Shown piece after piece: positions 1-22,635 of a stretch of DNA of 36,133 bases. Position 1 is the stretch's first letter; the number at the start of each line of letters is the position of its first letter. The translations under genes and the position numbers were made by a program. Source of the stretch: Tannerella sp. (lineage in GTDB: Bacteria; Bacteroidota; Bacteroidia; Bacteroidales; Tannerellaceae); the NCBI GenBank assembly GCA_031266995.1, contig JAIRZY010000095.1, positions 1-36,133 on the forward strand, read 5' to 3'. The notes beneath the pieces are model-generated. The model was given only the letters and a program-made list of their open reading frames with translations, had not been told where the DNA came from and searched no databases.

Positions 1-63
1 GTGGTAACAGGCAAAATGCCATACCGCGAAAACTACTTGAATCCGTTCGCTGACTGTGCCTGA
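1..63 (+). CDS. possible C-terminal tail of a gene entering from the left edge (VVTGKMPYRENYLNPFADCA*)
   Basis: Frame 1 is open from base 1 to TGA at 61-63 with plausible amino-acid composition; too short to be sure. Confidence 0.3.
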   Translation: MVTGKMPYRENYLNPFADCA

Positions 64-141
64 AAAATATTGATGATAATTAACAGAATATATTTGGATC
101 AGTCATAGAATTCAGACAGCGTCGCGGGATCGACGGCCGAG

Positions 142-204
142 CCGCGGGTCGATGACCCGCGGTTATGAAAATCAAGCCCTTCGGGCCGCAGGGGCAAACC
201 TGCG
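142..204. repeat. composite hairpin module (CCGCGGGTC-GAT-GACCCGCGG ttatgaaaat GCCC-TTC-GGGC, then CGCAGG..CCTGCG)
   Basis: Perfect stem 142-150/154-162, stem 176-179/183-186, stem 187-192/199-204; shares the module plus linker ttatgaaaat with 22052-22097. Confidence 0.75.
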
Positions 205-298
205 TGTTCGCCCGCATTTCGACGTCATGCAAAACGGCACCTTGCGTAACATCAATGATTTATATCATTTCTTATCCCGAACTCAGGCTGAAAAAGCG

Positions 299-21471: not shown

Positions 21472-21879
21472 ATGAAGAATTTTTTTACACTTGCTGCAGC
21501 AGCAGTCTTGAGCATGGCGCCGTTTTTCGCATCGGCGCAGAAGGGGGCCGTCGACGGCGTAATGACGGTCACGGAAATTGCATTGCCTTCGCCCGGCAAT
21601 ACCTACGGTTTCATAAGAGGGACGACAGGCGGGAAAGCCGTTCAGACGAAAACAGATTCGCGCGAATGGTTCGAATCGGGCGGGCCAAAGTCGTTTAGCC
21701 TTCCCAAGGGCACCAAAGTAGTTATGACGATGAAAAACGGAAAACCGGTACTTCACATATCGGAAGGTTCGGTTTCCTTCGTATTCAGCGACAGCTTCAA
21801 GCGGGAAATCAAGATCGGCATGAACTTGAAATACAAGCGGTCGGGGAAATTTGCCGTCATCATCAACGACGGCTTGTGA
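21472..21879 (+). CDS. small exported hypothetical protein
   Basis: 135 aa with a clear signal peptide (MKNFFTLAAAAVLSMAPFFASAQ); no recognised family. Confidence 0.75.
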   Translation: MKNFFTLAAAAVLSMAPFFASAQKGAVDGVMTVTEIALPSPGNTYGFIRGTTGGKAVQTKTDSREWFESGGPKSFSLPKGTKVVMTMKNGKPVLHISEGSVSFVFSDSFKREIKIGMNLKYKRSGKFAVIINDGL

Positions 21880-21880
21880 A

Positions 21881-22122
21881 CAATGTCATTAAATTAAGCC
21901 GTAATTGCCTGAAGGGCAGAATCTGCATAACCGCAGGTCAACGACCTGCGGGAGGTACCGCGCCCCCTCTTTCTCTGCCTGGAAGGCAGGATATGATGAT
22001 CCGGCGCTGTGTCCTGCCTTTCAGGCAGCAGATTTGGCGCGCATTCTGTCCCCGCAGGTCGGTGACCTGCGGTTATGAAAATATAACCTTTCAGGTTGTT
22101 ACGGCTTAATTTAATGATATTG
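21881..22122. repeat. ~242-bp composite palindromic element with 24-bp terminal inverted repeats and nested triloop hairpins
   Basis: caatgtcattaaattaagccgtaa (21881-21904) vs inverted 22099-22122 with one mismatch; internal collinear inverted arms including ccgcaggtc-NNN-gacctgcgg on both sides. Confidence 0.93.
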
Positions 22123-22197
22123 GCCCTGTAATGTGGCATAAAACAAACCCTTTTTATTAACAACCGCCCTCCGGGTGAGGGCATAATACTTAACAAA

Positions 22198-22635
22198 ATG
22201 AACAGCGTAGAATTGAAAAACAGAAAAGGCGCTCATGCGAGCGCAGTGAAATGGATGAAGGCGTCATGCCTGCTCGTGGCAAGCCTGATGTGCACGGGAC
22301 TTGCCGGATGCGGCGACGACGATCCGGCGGGGAAGTCGGGCAGCCTGGCTTTCGAAGGTAAGTCATATGCGGTGCATATCCGCCGCATAGACTACGGCGA
22401 GGACGGAAATCTTTTTATCGAAATGGGCTGCGACCTTCCGACGAAAACGACCATACGAAACGGTACGGCAGTGGCCGCCTTCGACATGAAAGTCGACGTG
22501 GGCGGGCGCACTTACGAGGCGCAGTACATCCTCGCTTCGTCCGACAGCTTCATATACTATTTCGCGACCTCGAAGCCGCCAAAGAAAATCACCGTATACA
22601 GCAACGACGGCTCGGGCGCAAGCATTTCATTTTAA
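22198..22635 (+). CDS. small hypothetical lipoprotein
   Basis: Lipobox-like CTGLAGCGDDD; start could instead be Met at 22255. Confidence 0.7.
   Translation: MNSVELKNRKGAHASAVKWMKASCLLVASLMCTGLAGCGDDDPAGKSGSLAFEGKSYAVHIRRIDYGEDGNLFIEMGCDLPTKTTIRNGTAVAAFDMKVDVGGRTYEAQYILASSDSFIYYFATSKPPKKITVYSNDGSGASISF

Follow-up and report, generated by a model that had tools for sequence, protein, structure and literature searches.

Layout of the palindromic element

The window, by which we mean the whole 36,133-nucleotide stretch of Tannerella sp. DNA that was analysed, carries a nested palindrome of 242 bp at 21881-22122, with exact boundaries. It lies between two ORFs of the same strand, one ending at 21879 and the next starting at 22198, and begins 1 base past the stop codon of the former (TGA, 21877-21879), directly after the gene as the initial annotation had it. 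The upstream ORF (21472-21879, 135 aa) is an orphan without a Pfam match, and no relatives of it were found in the 36 other genomes searched. The terminal inverted repeats span 24 bp, and ungapped arm-to-arm pairing holds at 60 of 72 positions, or 82 of 121 across the half-element. The coordinates, the ends with their single mismatch and the gapless extension of the pairing were as the initial annotation had described them, and all of its triloop hairpins were present as given (Table 1). Its description of a non-coding nested palindrome also stood. The sole ORF of at least 80 aa over the element (21894-22196, minus strand, 100 aa) crosses the palindromes. The RNA fold reached -157.8 kcal/mol, compared with a mean of -77.9 for dinucleotide shuffles (n = 200; z = -16.3; 0 of 200 shuffles as stable).

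Table 1. Features of the element and its flanks (window coordinates)
Feature	Position	Strand	Remarks
Candidate left target-site duplication GGCTTGTGAA	21871-21880	.	Holds the stop codon of the upstream ORF; 6/10 vs right flank
Left terminal inverted repeat	21881-21904	+	First 18 bp are an IS4-subgroup type end, CAATGTCATTAAATTAAG
Hairpin P1, left unit, GCCT-GAA-GGGC	21907-21917	+	
Linker, left unit, ATCTGCATAACC (consensus ATTTTCATAACC)	21921-21932	+	Conserved
Hairpin P2, left unit, CCGCAGGTC-AAC-GACCTGCGG	21931-21951	+	
Hairpin P3, left unit, CTGCCT-GGA-AGGCAG	21975-21989	+	
Hairpin P3, right unit, CTGCCT-TTC-AGGCAG	22014-22028	-	
Hairpin P2, right unit, CCGCAGGTC-GGT-GACCTGCGG	22052-22072	-	
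Linker, right unit, GGTTATGAAAAT (reverse complement ATTTTCATAACC)	22071-22082	-	Conserved
Hairpin P1, right unit, AACCT-TTC-AGGTT	22085-22097	-	
Right terminal inverted repeat	22099-22122	-	1 mismatch vs left end over 24 bp
Candidate right target-site duplication GCCCTGTAAT	22123-22132	.	6/10 vs left flank

Copies of the element were found at about 20 separate places in its own genome (G000, a draft of 284 contigs, 93% complete), many of them cut at contig ends, and the nine longer copies were 81-98% identical to one another. Matches to the core occurred in 24 of 61 genomes searched. The initial annotation would have given way to a single-copy locus lacking homologues, a description that does not apply here. 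No phage or plasmid copies were detected by distant blastn. In being short, non-coding, multi-copy and bounded by terminal inverted repeats, the element has the features of a MITE.

IS4-type ends and target duplications

The element end CAATGTCATTAAGTTAAG, allowing up to 3 mismatches, gave 32 matches in the own genome versus 0 for the reversed control. At least 118 stretches of public genomes, from Flavobacterium, Aquimarina, Allobaculum, Clostridium and others, contained the exact 18-mer end, as did 19 viral contigs. Across many Bacteroidota and Firmicutes, paired ends of this type delimit two size classes, elements of about 1.5-1.7 kb and MITEs of 80-350 bp. Two of three transposases tested from the long elements passed the IS4 cut-off of NF033592 (157.6 and 135.2 bits; cut-off 115 bits), and the third, a frameshifted ORF, scored 109.5 bits, below the cut-off. 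The IS4 subgroup is characterized by ends of the form -AATR--------WTW and target repeats of 10-13 bp (PMC2266710), and the ends of the window element fit this consensus. The 24-bp ends of the element belong to the IS4 subgroup, so it can have been moved by a DDE transposase of this type. Two other sources were considered and dropped: the IS231 subgroup, as the published table (PMC2266710) fits the IS4 subgroup better, and IS982 as mobiliser. An IS982-like C-terminus does adjoin a matching end at locus L058, but at L008/L058 the MITE end is interrupted by the end of the IS982-like element itself, CGTGAGTTCGATATAA, which marks that element as an intruder. The end of L008 and the start of L058 (contigs C107 and C262 of G000), both with the IS982-like insertion in the terminal repeat, may represent a single copy divided between two contigs.

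Flanking 10-mers were identical in 16 of 48 elements with these ends and agreed at 8 or more of 10 positions in 26 of 48, whereas the null of mismatched pairs gave about 0.4%. Among the five complete own-genome copies, the flanks matched at 10, 10, 8, 7 and 6 of 10 positions, the window copy being the last. Target duplications of the expected length are thus a property of the family, with perfect 10/10 duplications at the sister copies L002 and L003 and also at L073; the search for duplications that the initial annotation had proposed succeeded in those sister copies, while that of the window copy is only suggestive, because 6/10 arises by chance in about 5% of cases. The outcome for empty sites, which the initial annotation had also proposed to look for, was similarly divided. 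L003 is inserted in a dispersed repeat, and BLAST located an uninterrupted paralogue of that repeat at G000:C32:733-792, which represents a paralogous empty site, but no orthologous empty site was found for the window locus, whose flanking gene turned up in none of the 36 other genomes searched. Dispersed palindromes of other kinds (GTAGAGACGCGATGCATCGCGTCTCTAC; CCCCTCCCCACAAGGGAGGGG) are abundant in the genome and were seen at the flanks of L072, L073, L064 and L003; MITEs frequently lie in or near such palindromes (CCC..GGG or GGC..GCC targets).

A search of the draft G000 assembly (284 contigs, 93% complete) returned no IS4_1 gene matching NF033592. The same-genus genome G024 carries a decayed IS4_1 gene with two in-frame TGA codons inside a 1,175-bp element (L227), the ends of which, CAATGTCATCAAGTTAAG and CAATGTTATCAAGTTAAG, are near-identical to those of the window element; no target duplication was seen around it.

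Interior hairpin units and their link to Y1 transposases

The interior of the element is an inverted pair of units, each consisting of hairpin P1, a linker ATTTTCATAACC, hairpin P2 and hairpin P3. P1 is a stem around a GAA triloop, and the 12-base linker is mostly unpaired and holds the motif ATAACC. Extraction from the own and related genomes yielded 116 units, 92 of them distinct, and the exact 12-mer linker was retained in 56 of the 92. REP-like sequences are arranged as inverted pairs of imperfect hairpins scattered through intergenic DNA, and this arrangement was found here, with intergenic status seen for the window copy. The GTAG/GGAG-type tetranucleotide of REPs was absent from the hairpin foot, and the ATTTTCATAACC linker stands in its place.

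The Watson-Crick fraction was 0.776 in P1, compared with 0.455 when partners were reshuffled (maximum 0.505), and 0.944 in P2, compared with 0.844 (maximum 0.869), although these shuffles ignore relatedness. The four inner P1 pairs were Watson-Crick in 90% of cells in the own genome and 94% in relatives, whereas arm-to-arm complementarity of the same columns was only 55% and 63%, respectively. It is therefore the small local hairpins that are conserved, rather than a long foldback. The co-variation claimed by the initial annotation held and was stronger genus-wide, but the G-C to A-T difference between arms, on which it had been based, mostly reflects two arm types inherited in the own genome (GCC..GGC and AACC..GGTT) and mostly not repeated independent changes.

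Template switching during replication (quasipalindrome correction) could generate the covariation in place of selection by a transposase or on RNA, and would be compatible with the composite element proposed below. The excess of perfect complements over mispaired intermediates in P2 (238 Watson-Crick, 1 G-T and 4 A-C of 252 pairs) is in keeping with such a process, whereas the strong conservation of a mostly unpaired linker and the retention of local P1 pairing while arm-to-arm identity drifted argue against it, leaving template switching a doubtful cause of the covariation. The initial annotation had also suggested a structured RNA. A terminator, stabiliser or other mRNA-end element, with hairpins under selection in the transcript and transposition secondary, would agree with the very stable fold, the position between two same-strand ORFs and the conservation of stems through compensatory change. 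However, the element matched no Rfam family at the gathering threshold, each copy holds units in both orientations, and the ratio of G-T to A-C mispairs (28:11 in P1 with outer pairs, 12:8 in the four inner P1 pairs, 1:4 in P2) showed no clear strand bias. The suggestion was not supported, and we regard a primary role in RNA as quite unlikely.

The repeat is itself a site of insertion. At L011, L012 and L013 (contigs C107, C88 and C87 of G000), a mobile-element end beginning CTTTAGATTTGCACTCGG breaks the repeat between CCT and GAAAGG or at the equivalent P1/P3 loop, which suggests loop-specific targeting of the kind that PMC1525189 reports for ISs with REPs as targets. A different element end, terminating in GATCAGTCATAGAATT, abuts a P3 hairpin at three sites (window 1-256, L018 and L020), always at the same position, and at the start of the window it joins a core with a second type of shell, whose end is at 243-256.

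Similar units were found in related genomes beside IS200-like Y1 (HUH) transposase genes (PF01797) of Bacteroidales, namely in G053, G032 and G013. They stand inverted on both sides of the Y1 gene most clearly at G053:C75 and G013:C288, and the module detector matched on one side at G032, G053:C220 and G048. Among 25 Y1 loci classed by motif as subclass-1.2-like, only five have a TAACC module no more than 600 bp away, and the proteins of these five group in a single clade (support 100/99), an outcome reached by 0 of 500 label shuffles. Four of the five loci had been viewed before the detector was designed, so the fifth, G048, is the only independent one. Y1 subclass 1.2, with the Y motif YIKNQKEHH, occurs in Cyanobacteria and Bacteroidetes and has been described without REPs (PMC6006769). 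The core of the window element matched the G053 Y1 locus (E 7e-11), the closest Y1 locus lying in another family of the same order. Over all queries, 8 query-locus pairs matched on the 25 Y1 loci, compared with 2 on 30 IS4 loci, 1 on 26 other Y1 loci and 0 on 30 distant loci; the two matches in IS4 loci lie beside other genes, as REP-type repeats are dispersed.

No Y1 gene (PF01797) was found in G000, a draft that is 93% complete. The initial annotation's proposal to look for a Y1-type or DDE transposase with the same ends thus led to IS4 elements elsewhere and the decayed copy in G024, but to neither gene in G000. With neither transposase in the assembly, the own-genome copies may be relics or may rely on genes in assembly gaps.

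A probable composite of two transposition systems

The window-type core also occurs in other shells. In G007, G010, G016 and G022 it lies between ends ACTSATGTTACGCA, and 14 complete elements with this shell had identical 5-bp flanks in seven cases and identical 6-bp flanks in one more; a shell with 5-bp duplications implies a different transposase. The ACTSATGTTACGCA shell is present in the own genome as well, where one such end is visible at L011, which has a window-type core, and L400 encloses a different repeat, which matches the flank of a Y1 gene in G025 (E 1e-24). Two further own-genome elements, L072 and L073, have slightly different IS4-type ends CAATGTCGTCAACTTAAG and a core matching the G032 Y1 flanks (E 4e-9 for L073). 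Further shells were seen, one of the GGGGCTGTCTCAAAAG type in G029 and more in G021, G024 and G010, with few complete pairs. An own-genome element with the second shell, L396 (G000:C27:3089-3379), has another palindromic core, which matches none of the Y1 loci examined.

These cores bear on whether the element is simply an IS4-type MITE, the interior palindromes being incidental products of internal deletion or chance with no connection to Y1 enzymes. Ends of the CAATGTCATTAAGTTAAG type do enclose unrelated interiors in many genomes, and the lack of a detected Y1 gene in G000 would also be expected. Such a MITE is nevertheless unlikely, given that at least two shells, differing in duplication length, contain the core, that it matches inverted sequence beside Y1 genes and that its hairpin stems covary.

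Judged from its sequence, the element has the look of a hybrid that parasitises two unrelated transposases, because its ends are of IS4 type and its hairpin middle resembles the repeats beside IS200/RAYT-type genes. It is probably a composite, in which REP-like cores of Y1 type ride in a MITE shell moved by an IS4-type DDE transposase. What is established is a multi-copy family with shared IS4 ends and 10-bp duplications at the family level, units similar to those flanking a Y1 clade, and a core that recurs in shells with differing ends and duplication lengths; we infer the loading by a Y1 enzyme, the mobilisation by a transposase acting in trans, and which step came first. A Y1 enzyme, whose relatives recognise single-stranded DNA hairpins, would most likely have inserted the doublet into a short palindromic MITE, and an IS4-type transposase would afterwards have spread the composite. 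An IS4-subgroup DDE transposase would have cut and pasted the element in trans, leaving 10-bp target duplications.

The initial annotation had offered a MITE-like or a REPIN-like REP doublet, and both descriptions stood in part, as the element has IS4-type MITE ends and an inverted doublet of units resembling those beside Y1 genes but is not a canonical REPIN. The latter was dropped owing to the missing GTAG/GGAG foot, the conserved ATAACC linker between two hairpins and the IS4-type outer ends. An ordinary REPIN or BIME moved by a RAYT alone, with the outer inverted repeats merely part of the repeat, would account for the paired, inverted hairpin units, for their intergenic position in the window and for the similar units flanking Y1 genes. 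We consider it very improbable, as the outer ends belong to the IS4 subgroup, carry 10-bp duplications and are spread far outside this genus, related cores carry other ends, and the GTAG foot is lacking.

The composite shares features with several known systems. With the IS4 subgroup and its MITEs (PMC2266710) it has in common the end consensus, the 10-bp duplications and autonomous relatives of about 1.5-1.7 kb with an NF033592-type transposase; unlike them, the window element has no transposase, none was found in the draft, and its interior resembles Y1-associated repeats and does not look IS-derived. The inverted doublet of short hairpins and the units flanking Y1 genes recall REP/REPIN sequences and their RAYTs (TnpA-REP; PMC3116915, PMC6006769), but the window element lacks the GTAG/GGAG foot, joins the two hairpins of each unit by ATTTTCATAACC and is enclosed by DDE-type ends, and the Y1 genes here are subclass 1.2-like, a group reported without REPs (PMC6006769). 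REP dimers inside longer palindromes, as in the window element, are described for GTAG-15 of A. variabilis and CGTC-1 of H. neapolitanus (PMC3733652, section 7); their outer palindromes are not identified there as transposon ends, whereas the window family has IS4 ends, duplications and more than one shell. BrickBuilt and other Porphyromonas gingivalis MITEs (PMC4596501) are likewise Bacteroidota MITEs with repeated interiors, but they differ in their ends and in having a minisatellite interior. The mobile insertion cassettes MIC231 of Bacillus cereus are cited in PMC2266710. Like the window element, they are non-autonomous and bounded by IS4-family ends. MIC231 carries gene cargo, whereas the window element carries REP-like hairpins. 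REP dimers in longer palindromes (PMC3733652) and IS4-family MITEs and cassettes are thus already known; no description of REP-like cores common to several DDE shells was found in a limited search of the open-licence literature.

MITEs and REPs are usually regarded as separate classes with unrelated enzymes, the former moved by double-strand DDE cut-and-paste and the latter by single-strand HUH transfer. A family uniting the two, with its core in shells of differing ends and duplication lengths, suggests an exchange of hairpin cargo between the two systems. Tentatively, a modular trade may operate in this Bacteroidales genus, in which REP-like doublets of subclass-1.2 Y1 enzymes are repeatedly loaded into several unrelated DDE MITE shells, giving combinations that either enzyme could spread. 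If true, this would supply the missing cognate repeats for Y1 subclass 1.2, which has been described without any. Single strands comprising P1, linker and P2 are candidate substrates for subclass 1.2, so that the biochemistry of these enzymes becomes testable.
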